Positions 16,404 through 28,346 of a DNA stretch of 32,044 bases are shown piece after piece. Under the pieces are notes generated by a model. The model made no database searches and was not told where the DNA came from. It saw nothing but the letters and a program-made list of their open reading frames with translations. The stretch is from an uncultured Bacteroidales bacterium (GTDB lineage Bacteria; Bacteroidota; Bacteroidia; Bacteroidales; FEN-979). Numbering within the stretch: the stretch's first letter is position 1; each line of letters begins with the position of its first letter. The stretch covers positions 1-32,044 of the forward strand of contig CAIKNA010000227.1 of NCBI GenBank assembly GCA_903828645.1, in the 5' to 3' direction. The translations under genes were made by a program, and so were the position numbers.

Positions 16404-17174
16404 ATGATCAGCCGGCAATTTTCAAATTTGTTAAATGATCCGGGTATGGCAGATGACCAGGGCGTCGCGCTGCTTGAAGACCTGGTTGCCCGTTATCCTT
16501 ACTGCCAGTCTGGACAGTTACTTCTTGCCTATAATTTTTATGTAAAAGACGACCGCCAATACGCAAACCAGCTCAAAAAAGCCGCGGCTTACGCAGGTGA
16601 CCGACGGGTCCTTAAGGAACTTGTTGATCGTTCAAAAAAAGAATGGATTCAACCCGTCCGGCAGGAAGAAATCAGGCAGGAAGAAATCCGGCAGGAGGAG
16701 CGGTTTCTCCACCCCGGACCGGTAATCAGCATCATCGAGACCGCATCACCGGCATATGAGCGGATGACCCAGGAAGAGCTTCTGGAAATCGTGAAGAAAA
16801 GGCTGGGAGAAATCAAGATGGAAAAAATGCGGGAGCATATCTTTGAGGAAACCCTGGAACCTGTTTTCGATATTCCTGATCCGGTGCCTGTCAAAGAAAA
16901 CCCTGTACTTCAGGCGACCAGGGCATCGCTCATTGAAAAATTCATTGAGGATGAGCCCAGGATTTCGAAACCGAAGGCTGTCTTTTTCAGTCCTGTCGAA
17001 AGTGCCATCCGGAGCAACTCCGACGAAGAAGAAATTGTGAGTGAAACCCTTGCTCAATTATATGCACAACAAGGCAATATACCGAAGGCCATTCATATTT
17101 ATGAGAAATTATCCTTGATTAATCAAGAAAAAAGTCGTTACTTTGCAGCCCAAATTGAAAAACTCAGTATGTGA
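16404..17174 (+). CDS. TPR-like conserved protein, function unknown
   Basis: I do not recognise a specific function. The N-terminal 75 residues are helical (LLEDLVARYPYCQSGQLLLAYNFY), resembling a helical repeat. The middle is highly charged and probably disordered, with an RQEEI repeat at codons 86-99. The C-terminus contains one clear TPR-like helix pair, ETLAQLYAQQGNIPKAIHIYEKL, ending near EKSRYFAAQIEKL. There is no signal peptide or transmembrane segment, so a cytoplasmic location is likely. It sits between the LptE-like gene (26 bp gap) and secG (55 bp gap), a position similar proteins hold in other Bacteroidota, suggesting a link to the envelope or secretion, which is inference only. 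Confidence 0.85.
   Translation: MISRQFSNLLNDPGMADDQGVALLEDLVARYPYCQSGQLLLAYNFYVKDDRQYANQLKKAAAYAGDRRVLKELVDRSKKEWIQPVRQEEIRQEEIRQEERFLHPGPVISIIETASPAYERMTQEELLEIVKKRLGEIKMEKMREHIFEETLEPVFDIPDPVPVKENPVLQATRASLIEKFIEDEPRISKPKAVFFSPVESAIRSNSDEEEIVSETLAQLYAQQGNIPKAIHIYEKLSLINQEKSRYFAAQIEKLSM
16659..16700 (+). repeat. 15-bp in-frame tandem repeat encoding RQEEI
   Basis: Units begin at 16659, 16674 and 16689 and are nearly identical (CGGCAGGAAGAAATC with one base changed in the second; the third is partial). The period is a multiple of three, so copy changes keep the frame and only lengthen or shorten a charged linker. Confidence 0.85.
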
Positions 17175-17185: not shown

Positions 17186-17196
17186 GGATATTTAAT

Positions 17197-17226
17197 TCGT
17201 AAATCACAAATCGTAAATCGTAAATC
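17197..17226 (+). repeat. Heptamer tandem repeat in the secG leader
   Basis: Four 7-bp units begin at 17197, 17204, 17211 and 17218. Three are TCGTAAA and one is TCACAAA, followed by the start of a fifth (TCAAAA). The tract ends just before the secG ATG at 17230. Confidence 0.9.
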
Positions 17227-17229
17227 AAA

Positions 17230-17565
17230 ATGGGTATTTACATTTTAATCTCCGTTCTCATCCTGATCGTCTGTGTTTTGATGGTGTTGGTTGTGTTAGT
17301 GCAGAATTCAAAAGGTGGTGGACTGGCGTCGAATTTCGCCTCCTCCAATCAATTCATGGGTGTCAGGAAAACGGCCGATTTTCTTGAAAAAACCACATGG
17401 ACACTTGCCCTTACCCTGCTTGTACTGAGCCTCTTTTCTATTTTTGTCATTCCTAAAAGCCAGGGTAAATCGGAAACCACTAAAAGTGAGATCCAAAAGC
17501 AGATAGACGAAAGCAAAACTGCTCCGATCCAGGATTTTCAGGCCCCCCCCGCTCAAAAGAAGTAG
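17230..17565 (+). CDS. secG: Preprotein translocase subunit SecG
   Basis: Small inner-membrane subunit of the SecYEG channel. The first helix (ILISVLILIVCVLMVLVVLVQ, residues about 3-24) is followed by the diagnostic loop QNSKGGGLASNF, the MGVRKTADFLEKTTW segment and a second helix (about 54-75). The C-terminal 35 residues are hydrophilic and rich in Lys, Gln and Pro, a common extension in Bacteroidota. Length 111 aa is normal. It has its own promoter and an unusual heptamer-repeat leader, and is followed by an intrinsic terminator at 17596-17626. Confidence 0.95.
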   Translation: MGIYILISVLILIVCVLMVLVVLVQNSKGGGLASNFASSNQFMGVRKTADFLEKTTWTLALTLLVLSLFSIFVIPKSQGKSETTKSEIQKQIDESKTAPIQDFQAPPAQKK

Positions 17566-17595
17566 CCTGCCCGCTTCCATTTTCCAGTTTATTCG

Positions 17596-17626
17596 TGTCA
17601 GATTGTCAGCACAGTCTGACATTTTT
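17596..17626 (+). terminator. Intrinsic terminator after secG
   Basis: An 11-bp stem (TGTCAGATTGT with ACAGTCTGACA, one T-G wobble) with a CAGC loop is followed by TTTTT. It separates secG from groES. Confidence 0.85.
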
Positions 17627-17763
17627 ATTTGCTGACCGGCGGAAACTGAAAAAATGTCCAGATTTATTCACCTGATTTGGTTTGGCATAAATTGTGACTA
17701 TGTTGCTTTACCTGCATCAAAAGGTAAAAAATTGTATTGTTTAACTTTAAATTATAACGTAAA

Positions 17764-18042
17764 ATGGCAAATGTGAAGATTAAACCGTTGGCTGACCGCG
17801 TCTTGGTTGAAGCTGCCGCGGCTGAAGACAAGACAGCTGGTGGAATTATCATTCCTGATACAGCGAAAGAAAAACCCCAGAAAGGAACTGTTGTTGCAGT
17901 TGGTCCCGGTAAAAAGGACGAACCCATGACCGTTAAAATTGGCGACAATGTGCTCTATGGCAAGTATGCCGGCACCGAGATCACCATTGATGGCGAAAAT
18001 TACCTTATCATGCGCGAATCAGACATCGTAGCGGTAATCTAA
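17764..18042 (+). CDS. groES: Co-chaperonin GroES
   Basis: Heptameric lid of the GroEL folding chamber, in the cytoplasm. The N-terminus [22 protein letters not shown], including the mobile loop around [16 protein letters not shown], and the C-terminal half ([27 protein letters not shown]) are diagnostic. Length 92 aa is typical. groEL begins 53 bp downstream. The upstream 17627-17763 region contains no CIRCE inverted repeat that I can see; the nearest promoter-like string is a one-mismatch TAACTTTA at 17742-17749. Confidence 0.98.
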
Positions 18043-18095
18043 TCAACGTAACACAGGTAAGAAATTAAGAACCAATATTATAAAAATTATAGACC

Positions 18096-19733
18096 ATGGC
18101 AAAAGATATTATCTTTAGCATAAAAGCAAGAGAAGCGTTGAAGAAAGGTGTAGATGAACTTTCGAACGCCGTGAAAGTGACATTGGGGCCAAAAGGCCGG
18201 AATGTCATCATCGATAAATCATATGGATCCCCCATTGTTACCAAGGATGGTGTAACTGTTGCAAAGGAAGTTGAACTGAAAGACCCTGTTGAAAACATGG
18301 GTGCCCAGATGGTTAAGGAAGTTGCTTCCAAGACCAGTGATCTTGCCGGCGACGGAACGACCACCGCAACTGTTCTTGCCCAGGCTATCTTTACAACCGG
18401 GTTGAAGAATGTCACTGCAGGTGCCAACCCAATGGACCTGAAACGTGGCATCGACAAAGCTGTTGCTGAAGTTATCAAATCGCTGAAGGCCCAGACCAAG
18501 CAGGTTGGCGACAGCATGGAAAAAATCGAGCAGGTTGCTTCGATCTCTGCAAATAATGATAACTTCATCGGCAAAATGATTGCCCAGGCAATGGATAAAG
18601 TTAAAAAAGAAGGTGTAATCACCATTGAAGAGGCAAAGGGCATCGAAACCACCGTAAAAGTGGTTGAAGGCATGCAATTCGACCGTGGTTATATCAGCCC
18701 TTATTTTGTAACTGATACCGATAAAATGGAAGTTGTTTACGAAACTCCTTACATCCTGATTTATGACAAAAAGGTCAGTGTGATGAAGGATCTTCTTCCG
18801 GTTCTGGAAAAAGTTGTTCAAACCGGCCGTCCGCTCATCATCGTCAGCGAAGATGTTGAAGGTGAAGCTCTAGCAACACTGGTTGTGAACAAGATCCGCG
18901 GTACACTGAAAGTTGCTGCCGTAAAAGCCCCTGGATTCGGCGACCGTCGCAAGGAGATGCTGGAAGATATCGCCGTTCTTACCGGTGGTACAGTGATCAG
19001 CGAAGAAAAAGGATATAAACTGGAAGACGCAACACTGCAATATCTTGGCCAGGCTGAAAAAATAACCATTGACAAGGAAAATACAACCATTATCAATGGA
19101 AGTGGTCAGAAAGCAGACATCACTGCACGTATCAACCAGATCAAGACCCAGATCGGAACAACCACCTCTGATTATGATAAGGAAAAACTTCAGGAGCGTC
19201 TTGCTAAGTTAGCCGGCGGTGTTGCTGTAATTTATGTTGGTGCTGCTTCTGAAATTGAAATGAAGGAGAAAAAAGACCGTTTCGACGATGCCCTGCACGC
19301 CACCCGTGCAGCCATTGAAGAGGGGATCATCCCCGGGGGCGGTGTTGCCTACATCCGCGCTCAGAAATCAATTGAGCATTTAAAAGGTGAAAACGAAGAT
19401 GAAACCACCGGGATCGCAATCATCAAGCGCGCTCTCGAGGAACCTCTTCGCCAGATCGTCGAAAATGCAGGCCTCGAAGGTTCAGTAGTCATCCAAAAGG
19501 TAAAAGAAGGCAAAGATGACTTTGGTTTCAACGCCCGTACGGATGAATATGAAAACCTTTACCAGGCCGGTGTAATCGATCCCACCAAGGTTGCCCGCGT
19601 GGCACTGGAAAATGCTGCTTCAATTGCAAGCATGCTACTTACAACCGAATGTGTTCTTGCAACCCATAAGGAAGAAAAACCTTCTATGCCACCAATGAAC
19701 CCTGGAATGGGCGGAATGGGTGACATGTACTAA
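18096..19733 (+). CDS. groEL: Chaperonin GroEL
   Basis: Tetradecameric chaperonin that folds proteins with ATP and GroES. Visible hallmarks: [31 protein letters not shown] (nucleotide site), the apical-domain substrate region around [35 protein letters not shown], and a short Gly-Met tail ending GGMGDMY. Length 545 aa is standard and there is a single copy in the window. The groES-groEL pair is closed by a perfect terminator hairpin at 19752-19781. Confidence 0.99.
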
Positions 19734-19751
19734 ACGTTGACAACACTGTTC

Positions 19752-19781
19752 AAAAAAGCCCTGGGAGATCAGGGCTTTTTT
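19752..19781 (+). terminator. Intrinsic terminator after groEL
   Basis: A perfect 12-bp stem (AAAAAAGCCCTG with CAGGGCTTTTTT) and a GGAGAT loop. The A-run and T-run on the two sides make it able to work in both directions. Confidence 0.92.
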
Positions 19782-19823
19782 GTTATAATTTGCCTAATAT
19801 TGTAATGATCAAAAATTCCTGAT

Positions 19824-20384
19824 ATGAAACAATGTTTTTATATGCTCAGCCGTGTATTGCTAATGGGTATGCTTGGTTTACCTCTGTTTGCACAAAAACA
19901 AGCCCAACCCTATAACCTTCCCATCGATCCCGAAACCAAAAAAATCGTGTACCGGGAAGTTGTCGAACAAAAAGGAACACCAGCATATCTTTATGATAAG
20001 GCCATAGAATGGTTTGGTTACTATTATCTGAATCCACAGGCTGTATATACGGTTCAGAGTAAGGAAAACGGAAAAATCGAAGGAGTCGGACGCATGAAAA
20101 TCTATTATACCGACGAAGCTTCGGGGGTGAAAAGAGACGGGGGACTGATTCTCTACCAGATAAAAATGGAATTGAAAGAGAACAAGTTCAGGTATACACT
20201 GATGGATTTCAACCTGAAGGGGCCATCACGGTTCTCAATTGAAAAATGGATGGATAAATCCGACCCGGCCTATAATTCCAATTGGGATTCATACCTCTAC
20301 CAGGTTGATACCACCATGCAACGGCTCATCTCGACCATGAAGGAAAAAATGAAACCTAGCGTAGTCAAGAAAGATGAGTGGTAG
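19824..20384 (+). CDS. DUF4468-type exported protein
   Basis: Probable periplasmic protein with a signal peptide (LSRVLLMGMLGLPLFA, cleavage after FAQ or nearby). The mature N-terminus NLPIDPETKKIVYREVVEQKGT and the following helix (AYLYDKAIEWFGYYY) match the DUF4468 pattern of Bacteroidota, a domain with a TBP-like fold and no known function. Length is 186 aa. The gene overlaps rlmN by 11 bp, indicating co-translation, yet nothing in the sequence explains a link to an rRNA methylase. It follows the groEL terminator; only a mismatched -7 string (TAATATTG, 19795-19802) is seen upstream. Confidence 0.78.
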   Translation: MKQCFYMLSRVLLMGMLGLPLFAQKQAQPYNLPIDPETKKIVYREVVEQKGTPAYLYDKAIEWFGYYYLNPQAVYTVQSKENGKIEGVGRMKIYYTDEASGVKRDGGLILYQIKMELKENKFRYTLMDFNLKGPSRFSIEKWMDKSDPAYNSNWDSYLYQVDTTMQRLISTMKEKMKPSVVKKDEW

Positions 20385-21450
20385 TCCCCGGCAAGATATC
20401 AGGTCATTGACAAAAGCGGACCTGGAAGATTTTTTCCTTGTGCGCGGTGAAAAAAAATTCCGGGCAAGCCAGGTTTATGAATGGCTATGGAGAAAATCCA
20501 TCCGTTCATTCGATGAGATGACCAGTCTCTCCAAACCTGTCAGGCAACTGCTGGAAAATCACTTTTCATTTTGTGCAGCTGTTCCTGAAATTCGACAAAA
20601 CAGCGGGGATGGGACTGTGAAAACCGCATTCAGGCTGCATGACGGCTTGTTGGTTGAAAGTGTACTAATCCCGTCACGGGAGCGTGCAACGGTCTGTATC
20701 TCCTCCCAAGTAGGATGCGCCCTGGGTTGTCTGTTTTGTGCCACCGGACAACTTGGTTTCACCCGAAACCTTACTGTCGGGGAGATTTTAGACCAGGTAA
20801 CCGGGATGCGGGATGCAGGATCCAGAATGCAAAATCCGGACTTCGTAAACCCCGAACAGGAATTCATCATCTCAAACCTTGTCTTCATGGGGATGGGGGA
20901 ACCCTATTTGAATTACGAAAATGTGACCGGAGCCATTGAAAAAATCACATCATCCGACGGGCTTGGAATGTCGCCGCAGCGGGTCACTGTTTCCAGCGTT
21001 GGAATCCCGAAAATGATTAAAAAGATGGCGGATGATGATCCGAAATACCACTTTGCACTCTCCCTGCATGCTGCAACAGATGCCAAACGCGACCAGATTA
21101 TTCCGTTCAACAAGAAACATCCGTTGGCCGAATTAACAGAGGCCCTCAAATATTACCACAAAAAAACGGCCAGGCGGTTTACCATAGAGTACATCCTTTT
21201 TGGCAATTTCAATGATTCTGTTGCTGATGCAAAGGATCTTGCTTTGTTTTGCAGGAATTTCCCGGTCAAACTCAATATCATCGAATACAATCCGGTAACA
21301 GGGTCAGGTTTTACAAAATCCGATCCTGACAGAACCCGGGCTTTCATTGATTTTCTGGAGCACCGAAACCTGGTTGTCAATGTCAGACAAAGCCGCGGAA
21401 AGGACATCGACGCCGCCTGCGGACAGCTTCACTTAAAACTTAAAACTTAA
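20374..21450 (+). CDS. rlmN: 23S rRNA/tRNA adenine-C2 methyltransferase RlmN
   Basis: Radical-SAM enzyme that methylates C2 of A2503 in 23S rRNA (and A37 in some tRNAs). The cluster motif CALGCLFC provides C115, C119 and C122, followed by ATGQLGFTRNL; MGMGEPYLNYENV and the SLHAATDAKRDQIIP region bind SAM and substrate; the methyl-carrying cysteine is C349 in DAACGQL. Length is 358 aa. Two oddities: an insertion made of 7-bp repeats (20803-20837) in the loop before MGMGEP, and a second heptamer tract forming the last residues after C349. It overlaps the DUF4468 gene by 11 bp and precedes ade by 16 bp. Confidence 0.96.
   Translation: MSGSPRQDIRSLTKADLEDFFLVRGEKKFRASQVYEWLWRKSIRSFDEMTSLSKPVRQLLENHFSFCAAVPEIRQNSGDGTVKTAFRLHDGLLVESVLIPSRERATVCISSQVGCALGCLFCATGQLGFTRNLTVGEILDQVTGMRDAGSRMQNPDFVNPEQEFIISNLVFMGMGEPYLNYENVTGAIEKITSSDGLGMSPQRVTVSSVGIPKMIKKMADDDPKYHFALSLHAATDAKRDQIIPFNKKHPLAELTEALKYYHKKTARRFTIEYILFGNFNDSVADAKDLALFCRNFPVKLNIIEYNPVTGSGFTKSDPDRTRAFIDFLEHRNLVVNVRQSRGKDIDAACGQLHLKLKT
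20803..20837 (+). repeat. Heptamer tandem repeat inside rlmN
   Basis: Five consecutive 7-bp units: GGGATGC twice, then AGGATCC, AGAATGC and AAAATCC, increasingly degenerate. It encodes part of the stretch TGMRDAGSRMQNPDF, which lies in a loop that is variable between RlmN proteins. Confidence 0.8.
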
Positions 21451-21458
21451 CACTCATT
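21431..21458 (+). repeat. Heptamer tandem repeat at the rlmN 3' end
   Basis: Units start at 21431, 21438, 21445 and 21452: ACTTAAA twice, then ACTTAAC and ACTCATT. The tract supplies the last codons and the stop of rlmN and most of the 16-bp gap before ade. Confidence 0.85.
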
Positions 21459-23176: not shown

Positions 23177-23479
23177 ATGACTAATAAAACCGTACTCGAC
23201 ATTCAAAAACTTGAACTCGCTGCCAGCAAACTGCGTGCAATGGCTCACCCTATGCGAATTGCCATCATCGACCTGCTCACAGAAAATAAAAAACTCACTG
23301 TTACAGAAATTTATGAAAGATTGAGCATTGAGCAGGCATCGGCATCACACCACCTGAATATTTTAAAGAACAAAGGATTGCTGGAATCAAAGCGCGACGG
23401 CAAGATGATTTTGTATTCGCTGAAGACGAATGTGCTGGCAAACGTGATCGATTGTATCAATCAGTGTGTTACACACTAG
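23177..23479 (+). CDS. ArsR-family winged-helix regulator
   Basis: Small DNA-binding repressor of the ArsR/SmtB type, 100 aa. The winged helix-turn-helix is clear: MAHPMRIAIIDLL, LTVTEIYERLSIEQASASHHLNILKNKGLLESKRDGKMILYSL. The metal-sensing ELCVCDL motif of classical ArsR is absent from helix alpha-3. Two cysteines near the C-terminus (CINQC) could form a different sensing site, but this is inference. No transporter or resistance gene is adjacent, so the target is unknown; a tandem promoter upstream suggests autoregulation. Its stop codon shares the tetranucleotide CTAG with the stop of the convergent lipoprotein gene. Confidence 0.9.
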   Translation: MTNKTVLDIQKLELAASKLRAMAHPMRIAIIDLLTENKKLTVTEIYERLSIEQASASHHLNILKNKGLLESKRDGKMILYSLKTNVLANVIDCINQCVTH

Positions 23480-25269
23480 TTCCACACCTCTTCCACGTCC
23501 CAGTTGGCCCTGATGGTAACCGTTTTTGGTAAATAGATGACCTCTTCAGGTTGAATTTTTAATTTGTAATTTCCTGTATCCCAATGGCCATTCCTGTTGC
23601 GGTCGTAAATGGCCTTGAGTTTGTATTTTCCGGGGGGCATGAAATCAAAATGGATTTTTTCTGAGCCTGTAATGATTTTCTCCTCAAAAACCGCTGATTC
23701 ATTCTCATTCATCAGTTGAACAATGTATTGTCCCGGTCTCTTTTCCATGTTCATGGAAACGATCAGGTTGCCGAAATCCTTCTCTGCCCTGGTTTTGAAT
23801 TCCAAAAAGACCGAGTCGTGTGTAAAGTTCTGGATTCCGAAAAAGACGGAATCAGGGATGATGATTTTATAAGTTTTTTCCTCATCCCATTTGTGTTGGA
23901 TGATAATTTCCCTTTTCAGGCTGTCGGAGAATGAAATATCCGGATGAATTGTGTCTTTTGCTGAAACCAGTAAAACCTTCGAAAAGTTCCAGCGAATCAG
24001 CGGATATGAAAAATTCAGTGTCAGTTTGTTTTTATACTGGTTCAGCCCGGAATGGGAGGCAGCATTCGAAATGCCAAGCTGGACTTGTTTCTCCTTGCCG
24101 GATGATTTTTTTCGGATCTCTTTTTTCGTGACTTCGAGGCGCACCGTGTCAATAGTCTTATTGCCAAGGATAACTTTGGCAACCAGTGAATCAACATTCG
24201 GACGTGTAATCCAGAGAGTCACTGAATCTCCTTGTTTGGATAACTCTTCAATATACCAGGGGGATATCGAATCAAAATTCAATGGTACCACACGCAGGTT
24301 TTTAACCGGGAAACGGAACACCACCAGGGCCTTGCCCTCCATTGGGAACGAAGCATGCTTAATGCGTTGAACAGAATCGGTTGATTCAAAAAGAAAAAGG
24401 GAAGCGGATGGATAGTTCAACAAATTTTGCCTGGTGGAATTAATTTTATTCATCGAATCGGCAACTTTCAGGGAATCTGCTGATTTTTTCCTTACCGGGA
24501 CAACATTATGATGATCAGGATGTACGGAATCATTTGCTAAGGTATCGGGCTTCGGTACGCGAATGTAATAGGGTTTGACCAGGCTGTCGTTAAAAGCAAT
24601 TTTTTCAGATGGTTGATTAAAAATCAGATCCCCATTCTGATCTGCAAGCGCAAACAGCAGAAATTCTCCTTGTTTAAGGTTGTGGAACATGAAATTCCCC
24701 TGTTCATCAGTTTTGGTAACATAATAAGGTGCCACATGAAGCGGCAGGGAATCCAAAGGAAGCGTGTCGTTGTTGCTGATGTATAATTCAATGAAAACAT
24801 CCTTCTGAAGTTTGTGATCAAATGCAGTTTGAAGGGTTCCCTGCAGGGAGAGGGAGTCAACATAATGCCCTGTTGAAAATACGTAATTAAATCCCTTCAG
24901 CACATTCCCCTCGGTCAGATCAAGGATGGCGTTGCCAAAGGTGACGGAGTAAGTGGTGTTTGCGGCCAGGCTGTCGTCAAGTCTGACGATCAGTGATTTT
25001 CCCCTAACCCTTGTGTCTATCGGGCTTTTTAAAGGTGGTGAGATGAAAATTTCATTTACGGGGTTTTTGAGGTTGATGAACTCATTAAAATCGATCCGGA
25101 AACTTCCTCCTTTGAATTCAGTTGCTGAATTTGGCGGGTCACAGGATATGACTCTGGGAGGGTTTACATCTTTTGGCCCTCCCTCGGGGCTTATCGGATG
25201 TGCACAACCATAGAGCAACAATGCAGTTAAGATGAGAAAAAAGTAAAATAAAATTGTTGATCGTAGCAC
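23476..25269 (-). CDS. Ig-like (SbsA-type) domain lipoprotein
   Basis: Large exported lipoprotein conserved in Bacteroidota, function unknown. The signal peptide (FYFFLILTALLLYGC) ends in a lipobox-like LYGC with Cys22. The next segment, PISPEGGPKDVNPPRVISCDPPNSATEF, opens an SbsA-like Ig domain (about residues 35-135; FNEFINLKNPVNEIFISPP, NTTYSVTFGNAILDLTEGN). A prealbumin-like beta domain follows around 140-235 (TDEQGNFMFHNLKQGEFLLFALAD). The C-terminus, PPGKYKLKAIYDRNRNGHWDTG, is typical of this family. Length is 597 aa. It is divergent from yebC, with its own good promoter, and convergent with the ArsR gene. Confidence 0.87.
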   Translation of the reverse strand: MLRSTILFYFFLILTALLLYGCAHPISPEGGPKDVNPPRVISCDPPNSATEFKGGSFRIDFNEFINLKNPVNEIFISPPLKSPIDTRVRGKSLIVRLDDSLAANTTYSVTFGNAILDLTEGNVLKGFNYVFSTGHYVDSLSLQGTLQTAFDHKLQKDVFIELYISNNDTLPLDSLPLHVAPYYVTKTDEQGNFMFHNLKQGEFLLFALADQNGDLIFNQPSEKIAFNDSLVKPYYIRVPKPDTLANDSVHPDHHNVVPVRKKSADSLKVADSMNKINSTRQNLLNYPSASLFLFESTDSVQRIKHASFPMEGKALVVFRFPVKNLRVVPLNFDSISPWYIEELSKQGDSVTLWITRPNVDSLVAKVILGNKTIDTVRLEVTKKEIRKKSSGKEKQVQLGISNAASHSGLNQYKNKLTLNFSYPLIRWNFSKVLLVSAKDTIHPDISFSDSLKREIIIQHKWDEEKTYKIIIPDSVFFGIQNFTHDSVFLEFKTRAEKDFGNLIVSMNMEKRPGQYIVQLMNENESAVFEEKIITGSEKIHFDFMPPGKYKLKAIYDRNRNGHWDTGNYKLKIQPEEVIYLPKTVTIRANWDVEEVWN

Positions 25270-27131: not shown

Positions 27132-28346
27132 TTAAAATTTGAACTCTGAATTTGTAACAATATTATATGTGTCAACGGCAATTACCAGTTCTTCGTTGGT
27201 GGGCATCACCATCGACACTACGCTTGACCCCGGGCGGGTAACAATGGCTTCTTTTCCCCTAACTGCATTTCGTTCATTGTCATAATCAACTCCCAGGAAA
27301 CCAAGGCCTTCCAGGATGCGTCTGCGTGTGTCAATGTCATTTTCACCAATGCCCCCTGCAAAGACAATCAGGTCAACACCACTCATGGCGGCTGCATAGG
27401 CACCGATGTATTTTTTAACCCGGTAAGCATACATGTCAAGCGATAACTGGGCACGCGAATTTCCGTTTCCGGCTGCCTGTTCAACATCGCGCATATCAAA
27501 GGAGATGCCGGAGATGCCGCATACGCCGCTTCTTTTATTGAACATTGCATTGGTATCTGCAATGCTGAGGTTCTCTTTTTCAGCCAGGAATAACAGCACG
27601 CCCAGGTCCACATCGCCGCTGCGCGTACCCATCATCAATCCTTCCAGCGGGGTAAAGCCCATGGAGGTGTCGAGTGATTTACCGTTCCGGATCGCAGCAA
27701 CAGAGGATCCGTTTCCCAGGTGGCAGGTAATGATTCGGAGATTGTTGAAGTCTTTACCGAGAAAACGACAGGCCTTCTGAGCAACATATTTATGAGATGT
27801 TCCGTGAAATCCATATCGGCGGATCTTGTATTTTTCATAGAACTCATAGGGGATGGCATACAGGTATGAATATGCCGGCATGGATTGATGGAAAGAGGTA
27901 TCGAAAACGGCAACCTGCGGAATGTCAGGAAGAATGGCTTCGATCGAGAGTATTCCTTTCAGGTTGGCAGGATTGTGAAGGGGGGCGAGTTCAATGCATT
28001 TTTCAATGTCTTTTTTGACATCTCCTGTAATGAGCGCGCTGGTTTTGAAATTTTCACCGCCATGTGCAACGCGGTGGCCGACAGCCACAATTTCGTTTAC
28101 ATCCTTAATAACCCCGTAAACAGGATCTTTAAGTGTTTCCAGGATAAGGTTTATCCCAACCTGATGATCAGGAATTTCCCGGATAACTTTATACTTCTCT
28201 TTCCCGGTAACCTGGTGCGTCAGTTCACTGGTGGGTAATCCGATGCGGTCGAGCAGTCCCTTGGCTTTGAGATCAGCTTCTTCAGAAAGCTCGATCAGCT
28301 GATACTTGATGGACGAACTGCCGCAGTTTAAAACAAGGATTTTCAT
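27132..28346 (-). CDS. ackA: Acetate kinase
   Basis: Reversibly phosphorylates acetate with ATP to acetyl-phosphate; in fermentation it makes ATP. Signatures: the N-terminal VLNCGSSSIKYQL (phosphate-binding N7, S10 and S12), GHRVAHGGE, the catalytic aspartate region FDTSFHQSMP, RRYGFHGTSHKYV, MMGTRSGDVDLG and GGIGEN. Length 404 aa is normal. The usual partner pta is not adjacent; instead a response regulator follows. A strong promoter at 28425-28455 gives a leader of about 70 bases. Confidence 0.98.
   Translation of the reverse strand: MKILVLNCGSSSIKYQLIELSEEADLKAKGLLDRIGLPTSELTHQVTGKEKYKVIREIPDHQVGINLILETLKDPVYGVIKDVNEIVAVGHRVAHGGENFKTSALITGDVKKDIEKCIELAPLHNPANLKGILSIEAILPDIPQVAVFDTSFHQSMPAYSYLYAIPYEFYEKYKIRRYGFHGTSHKYVAQKACRFLGKDFNNLRIITCHLGNGSSVAAIRNGKSLDTSMGFTPLEGLMMGTRSGDVDLGVLLFLAEKENLSIADTNAMFNKRSGVCGISGISFDMRDVEQAAGNGNSRAQLSLDMYAYRVKKYIGAYAAAMSGVDLIVFAGGIGENDIDTRRRILEGLGFLGVDYDNERNAVRGKEAIVTRPGSSVVSMVMPTNEELVIAVDTYNIVTNSEFKF

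Follow-up and report, generated by a model that had tools for sequence, protein, structure and literature searches.

Three tandem repeats with different units and the same period of seven bases lie within 4.3 kb of a single contig of an uncultured Bacteroidales bacterium. What accounts for a shared period without a shared sequence? The window analysed here is a stretch of 32,044 nucleotides and corresponds to contig C227 of the source genome (5,104,608 bases in 409 contigs). A sequence-only reading of it had attributed the three tracts to one repeat-generating or repeat-spreading process and had ranked them as its best candidate for an undescribed element.

Results

The three tracts and their genes

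The features concerned are as follows.

17193..17226, + strand: tract 1, from TRF and the lag scan, with AAATC cores read by eye
17230..17565, + strand: secG (Pfam PF03840), immediately 3' of tract 1
20374..21450, + strand: rlmN (Pfam PF21016 and PF04055, ORF call), containing tract 2 and ending within tract 3
20802..20837, + strand: tract 2, GGGATGC-type heptamers within the rlmN frame, encoding a variable RlmN loop
21431..21456, + strand: tract 3, ACTTA cores with spacers AA, AA and AC, then ACTCA (cores read by eye)

TRF reported period-7 arrays at 17193-17226, 20802-20821 and 21431-21454, and a lag scan over periods 5-12 gave the three tracts the same score of 14.5 (at 17193-17226, 20802-20835 and 21431-21454), confirming that all three exist. 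The coordinates first assigned to them hold overall, except that tract 1 starts near 17193 and the clear periodicity of tract 3 stops near 21454. The secG start codon follows three bases past the end of tract 1, and the rlmN stop codon (21448-21450) lies inside tract 3. By eye, tract 1 reads AAATC-AC-AAATC-GT-AAATC-GT-AAATC, with its four cores at 17201-17205, 17208-17212, 17215-17219 and 17222-17226, while tract 3 reads ACTTA-AA-ACTTA-AA-ACTTA-AC-ACTCA. Both fit a layout of cores and spacers; what had been described as units degenerating outward is here mainly a matter of variable spacers separating constant cores. At least 10 consecutive lag-7 matches occur in tracts 1 and 3 and not in tract 2. 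Tract 2 is the weakest case when taken alone: the other 960,566 sampled coding bases hold 8 period-7 tracts scoring at least 13.5.

Two other tracts of the window scored at least 10 in the lag scan, one of period 7 at 23551-23572 (10.0) and one of period 9 at 27501-27529 (12.5). The former is A+T-rich, weaker, and situated near the 3' end of a minus-strand ORF (23476-25269). An in-frame 15-base repeat encoding RQEEI at 16660-16696, in the ORF upstream of secG, is a protein-level repeat, unlike the heptamers. Pfam domains around the tracts were those of SecG, Cpn10 (GroES), RlmN, adenine deaminase, LptE and the phenylalanyl-tRNA synthetase beta chain. The closest named relative by RlmN in one scan, from which records very near the window may be missing, was an uncultured Bacteroidales bacterium (74% identical). 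No Rfam family matched the window at gathering score, and an RNA family was rejected as the identity of the tracts.

Period 7 across the genome and its relatives

In order to sample the source genome regardless of repeats, contigs were taken at intervals of five between C100 and C325 (665,605 bases). This unbiased sample held 31 period-7 arrays, against 0, 2, 3, 4, 6, 1, 2, 5 and 0 arrays at periods 4, 5, 6, 8, 9, 10, 11, 12 and 13, respectively; period 14 gave 10. First-order Markov simulation of 437,926 source-genome bases produced no array at any period from 4 to 16, where the real sequence had 21 at period 7. A degenerate detector found 128 period-7 arrays, versus at most 20 at any other period from 5 to 12, in a 1.29 Mb source sample that is biased by the inclusion of contigs picked for carrying the AAATCGT pattern. 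The sequence-only reading had named the lack of a genome-wide excess of period 7 as grounds for its refutation, and since a clear excess exists that check does not refute it. Its remark that heptamers favour gaps also agrees with the genome: 27 of the 31 unbiased arrays were mostly intergenic, versus a coding fraction of 0.878 in the source sample, which is a non-coding bias. Period 7 dominates the tandem repeats of this genome, and the three tracts are local examples of many arrays, not an isolated element. Once clear arrays had been masked, the lag-7 excess in source intergenic DNA was not significant (0.278 vs 0.273), and the idea that gaps are generally made of decayed heptamers was rejected.

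Among five family relatives (100 kb each) the degenerate detector found 19 period-7 arrays, the next period being 8 with 10 arrays, and in three outgroups (260 kb) it found 2. Density was uneven among relatives. Strict arrays per 100 kb numbered 3 in G018, 2 in G002, 7 in G025, 0 in G029 and 2 in G017, and there were none of period 7 in 40 kb of G024. In the G002 stretch, period 8 outnumbered period 7 by 4 to 2.

Unit families

The 74 strict arrays of a partly biased 1.09 Mb source sample fell into 21 unit classes, a few of which recur: AAATCGT, the unit of tract 1, made up 39 arrays, AAAATGC 6 and AAAACTT, the unit of tract 3, 3, with 18 further classes of 1-3 arrays each. The unit of tract 2 was absent from these classes. 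The AAATCGT search pattern, TCGTAAATCGTAAATC, allowed at most one mismatch and matched the source genome 571 times (overlaps within one array counted), its reversed control 0 times. It was present in 36 of the 37 family genomes searched, the exception being G024. Outside the family but within the order, 6 of 24 genomes carried 1-2 matches. A second pattern, GTGACNNGTGACNNGTGAC (GTGACNN), gave 144 source-genome matches and none for its control; it occurred in 27 of the 37 family genomes and in one of the 24 others (G058, 23 matches). The phenomenon of the tracts is thus found across the family. The two families vary separately, with 412 AAATCGT and 0 GTGAC matches in G006 and 40 and 894 in G013.

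The reversed GTGACNN control, CAGTGNNCAGTGNNCAGTG, matched in 11 of the 61 genomes. Its 21 matches in G021, the highest count, and 10 in G060 come from genomes where GTGAC has none, which hints at further heptamer cores.

At the scale of the phylum, the AAATC array pattern AAATCNNAAATCNNAAATC had matches in 80 of 296 genomes, with 499 in the source genome and 3 for the reversed control. Phylum-wide use of AAATC arrays was rejected, as some match-rich genomes were nearly equal on the reversed control. Three of the genomes concerned, from one genus of another family of the class, gave 60 matches to 49 (G091), 51 to 38 (G236) and 126 to 90 (G272), similar rates hinting at other A+T-rich heptamers there. 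Genomes of lower density with a clean control were G321 (42 to 1), G121 (34 to 0) and G165 (26 to 0).

It had been suggested that the first two tracts can both be written as ATC plus four bases. This formula anticipated the AAATC core and fell short for (G)TGAC, ACTTA and GCAAA-type units, which also occur. What the unit families have in common is the period and the layout of core and spacer.

Cores, spacers and array ends

Within arrays, AAATC or (G)TGAC is constant and about two bases vary. Mismatches by position were 57, 13, 15, 7, 27, 62 and 84 over 185 GTGACAA-type units, and 63, 12, 29, 17, 55, 79 and 88 over 455 AAATCGT-type units; the units of one array are copies of one another, which makes these counts dependent. 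The least variable bases were 2-5 in the former and 2-4 in the latter, and the last two were the most variable in both. A further search took each possible 5-base core in turn, requiring at least three copies separated by two free bases. AAATC (18) and GTCAC, the complement of GTGAC (14), ranked highest among the mixed-spacer arrays, and first-order Markov simulation yielded none. In the two best sampled unit families, units are shown to combine four to five conserved core bases with two to three variable ones.

A preference in where AAATCGT arrays end was first noticed on 43 runs. Over 60 perfect runs of at least 16 bases in the source sample, starts by unit position numbered 29, 15, 0, 4, 0, 4 and 8, and ends 1, 5, 0, 17, 23, 5 and 9. 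A stricter count, limited to ends where the next seven bases leave register, gave 15, 10, 0, 1, 0, 2 and 7 for starts (35 in all) and 0, 2, 0, 14, 17, 1 and 4 for ends (38 in all); compared with random-phase arrays placed in real intergenic flanks, p was about 1e-6 and 1e-8, respectively. In 43 genomes family-wide, 318 runs (47 in the source genome) ended in AAATC versus 12 (source 0) in AAA, and 368 (source 75) started with AAATC versus 58 (source 0) with ATCGT. These patterns of 19 or 20 letters compare two of the seven phases per side, and since they also count arrays continuing with a variant unit, layout and ends are measured together. G006 accounts for 36 of the 58 ATCGT starts, and the preceding base is mostly T, a unit variant. 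Starts of 27 GTGAC runs were 9, 5, 1, 1, 2, 3 and 6; for these, as for 9 ACTTA and 18 GCAAA runs, the preference was weak or the sample small. The tendency of arrays to begin and stop at the core is thus shown clearly for AAATC only.

Placement and inverted pairs

Co-directional gaps held 15 AAATCGT arrays in sense and 11 in antisense. By gap type, arrays numbered 24 (++), 17 (--), 8 (+-) and 7 (-+), against a background of 233, 152, 71 and 111 gaps of 20 or more bases, with genes taken from a simple caller whose starts are sometimes wrong. The upstream stop codon was the nearer gene boundary for 27 of 41 arrays and the start for 14 (p 0.06). No bias of orientation or gene arrangement was found in the source sample, the proximity to stop codons was not significant, and regulatory placement was rejected on these figures.

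In the source sample, nine pairs of neighbouring AAATCGT arrays were separated by less than 150 bases. Eight were inverted in the order (GATTTAC)n-spacer-(GTAAATC)n and one was direct; none had the opposite inverted order. Three more pairs within 150 bases were seen by eye in G018, in the same order. Taking all units together, neighbouring pairs were 8 inverted, 2 direct and 2 other in the source sample, and 2 inverted and 1 other in relatives. The spacers of inverted arrays look unrelated by eye, and the notion that arrays are the ends of one mobile element was rejected. A single pair of related spacers was found, in a paralogous duplication on contig C26 (L026, 3145-3238 and 15701-15777), where the flanks of the two paralogous gaps align directly and the arrays with their spacer are inverted. 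This one case suggests that DNA between paired arrays may flip. Among the pairs counted in relatives, one in G025 (L122, 12255-12306) is a palindrome of GAAAAGC-like heptamers, perfect over 25 bases and with a loop of 2 bases.

Turnover at matching sites

Pairs of AAATC seven bases apart were found at most 70 bases before secG in 8 of 16 genus genomes (G000, G001, G002, G003, G006, G007, G011 and G014, the pair of G007 reaching into the end of the preceding gene) and in none of the 9 genomes from other families. The rlmN end was usable at 28 of 30 loci, G014 and G021 being broken by contig ends. Repeats of ACTTAAA or ACTTAAC type occurred there in G000, G001, G002 and G012, ATTAAAA in G008 and G018, and AGCGAAA in G020; by eye, the other 21 of the 28 loci had no clear repeat. 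Copy number differs among relatives at both of these matching sites, few sites having been compared. Of 74 orthologous gaps in fetched stretches, 65 were arrayless in both species, 3 had an array in the relative only, 5 in the source genome only and 1 in both. The last carries ACTTAAC-type units in G018 and ACTTAAA-type units in the source genome, and two of the one-sided gaps hold degenerate heptamers, seen by eye, in the other species too. With most array-bearing gaps one-sided and one carrying different units, arrays turn over fast, and a single gap can carry different units. Amid this turnover, the secG leader may be a place where arrays persist from one species to another.

Tract 2 and the RlmN loop

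The RlmN loop that holds tract 2 falls into three length groups across 19 genus genomes: 12 have 33, 54 or 75 bases, 5 have 45, 66 or 108, and 2 have 105. Within each group, division by 21 leaves an equal remainder. In 10 other genomes the loop was 48 bases (9 genomes) or 72 (1 genome). Three heptamers make 21 bases, which allows heptamers to remain in frame, and the earlier statement that they cannot is contradicted by a loop that varies within the genus mostly by multiples of 21 bases. Across all 19 loops, identity was 0.326 at lag 7 and 0.312 at lag 14, with every other lag between 2 and 16 at 0.22-0.27; leaving out the source genome gave 0.314 and 0.300. These genomes are related, and neither lags nor lengths are independent. 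Period 7 throughout the loop set was rejected, since the value of 0.364 at lag 7 (0.360 at lag 14) came from 11 loops picked by length, fell to 0.326 in all 19 and stood at 0.290 in the remaining 8, which had no clear signal (0.268 at lag 14, 0.288 at lag 10). We infer that the loop may be an old heptamer array turned protein loop, changing three units at a time.

Discussion

We hypothesize, with a probability of roughly 0.65, that the three tracts are part of a bloom of heptanucleotide arrays across the family, produced by slippage or template switching, with a core that is recognised by something. Slippage-type duplication is the most likely origin of the arrays. Under this hypothesis, arrays would grow and shrink in whole heptamers; gaps and gene ends would accept any number of units, and a reading frame such as that of RlmN would accept them in threes only. 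Arrays would turn over fast between species and persist in the secG leader. Changes by whole units and a preference for tolerant places follow from slippage or template switching. The sparing of the core by variation and the placement of ends on it are left unexplained by plain slippage. Together, the uneven conservation and the preferred ends imply that the core is recognised, through selection for a putative bound protein or RNA or through a requirement of the copying step itself. Also weighing against the hypothesis are the dependence among unit counts, an end preference that is clear for AAATC only and was compared family-wide at two of seven phases per side, and the uneven densities among relatives, with no strict array in 100 kb of G029 and more arrays of period 8 than of period 7 in the G002 stretch.

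How much of this could be due to binding alone? The cores may be tandem sites, seven bases apart, for putative DNA- or RNA-binding proteins, preserved by selection as the spacers drift, in a regulatory or chromosome-organising network. Such an origin is possible and, in our judgement, unlikely. It would fit the uneven conservation within units, array ends that fall on the core at both sides, the AAATC pairs before secG in half of the genus genomes and none of those from other families, and the single inverted order of eight of nine neighbouring pairs. It sits poorly with the near balance of sense and antisense arrays, gene arrangements close to background, stop-codon hugging short of significance, and the presence of an array in one species only at 8 of the 9 array-bearing orthologous gaps under the strict detector. 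A classical regulatory role is disfavoured by the fast turnover and by the missing orientation preference; the secG leader speaks for one at that site.

Another candidate is an enzyme or template-switching step that would pair anew with the core and extend the array by seven bases each cycle to give core-(spacer-core)n. The AAATC(GTAAATC)n layout with its preferred ends is what such sequence-guided addition would leave; identical units stand at many loci with no common flank visible by eye, and lineages differ in the core that is amplified. Spacers vary within arrays, which one guide would not yield, and we regard this candidate as quite improbable. A hypothetical repeat-adding activity of this kind, re-annealing a 5-base core and extending by seven, would by analogy bring a logic like that of telomere synthesis inside a bacterial chromosome, and is very improbable. 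If true, several guides would give rise to the AAATC, GTGAC and other families, and the fixed period, core-placed ends, lineage-specific units and spread of one unit over many loci would be explained. The odds that all three tracts reflect chance or assembly error are close to negligible. Tract 2 alone, with its 8 equals in coding DNA, lends itself to such a view, against which stand the genome-wide excess, the occurrence in many separate genomes and the arrays at matching sites in relatives; for tracts 1 and 3 the counts refute it.

The favoured reading, a bloom of arrays with a recognised core, places the tracts in a class that has precedents, so the proposal of an undescribed element is not supported: heptameric tandem repeats have already been described in bacteria (PMC4692102, PMC4679880). 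The heptameric simple repeats of bacteria show an excess of period 7, a non-coding bias and variation in copy number, and all three are observed here. A 2007 survey, as cited in PMC4692102, found an excess of heptameric repeats in many bacterial genomes, the proposed cause being slippage tied to the stretch of DNA in the grip of the polymerase. The excess of period 7 is common to that survey and to our data; as cited there, the survey does not extend to unit anatomy, array ends or a protein loop.

TAACTGA heptamers have been described from marine Beggiatoaceae, some cyanobacteria and five Bacteroidetes, with 169 sets in one draft genome (PMC4679880). They resemble the present arrays in being direct heptamer repeats that are mostly intergenic, occur in many sets per genome, are patchy across lineages and have no proven function. 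They differ in their unit, which is absent from the 21 unit classes of the 74 source-genome arrays, and here several unit families coexist. The forward orientation just before start codons ascribed to them (PMC4679880) was not encountered among the 15 sense and 11 antisense AAATCGT arrays. The heptamers GGGAATC and GGGGA(C/T)T of Xanthomonas and Nostoc, over 180 per genome in Xanthomonas, likewise combine fixed with free positions (GGGANTN) and a non-coding bias and often lie between identical gene pairs in two species with varying length, which is similar to the situation here (PMC4692102). Those units are G-rich and quadruplex-capable (PMC4692102), whereas the units here lack G runs: none of the 21 classes has three or more consecutive G except AAGGGAC, a single array.

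Titles and abstracts in the literature searched, in which subscription journals are thinly covered, held no description of these unit families. The case is strong that what is new here is a core-plus-spacer variant of the described heptamer class, with a fixed short core and a variable two-base spacer. In this family, dozens of related genomes bear arrays that follow a measurable rule of core and spacer, have preferred ends and pair in a single inverted order, and a protein loop varies by 21 bases. The family thus makes the bacterial preference for seven-base repeats testable through comparison, simple reporters and mutation accumulation.
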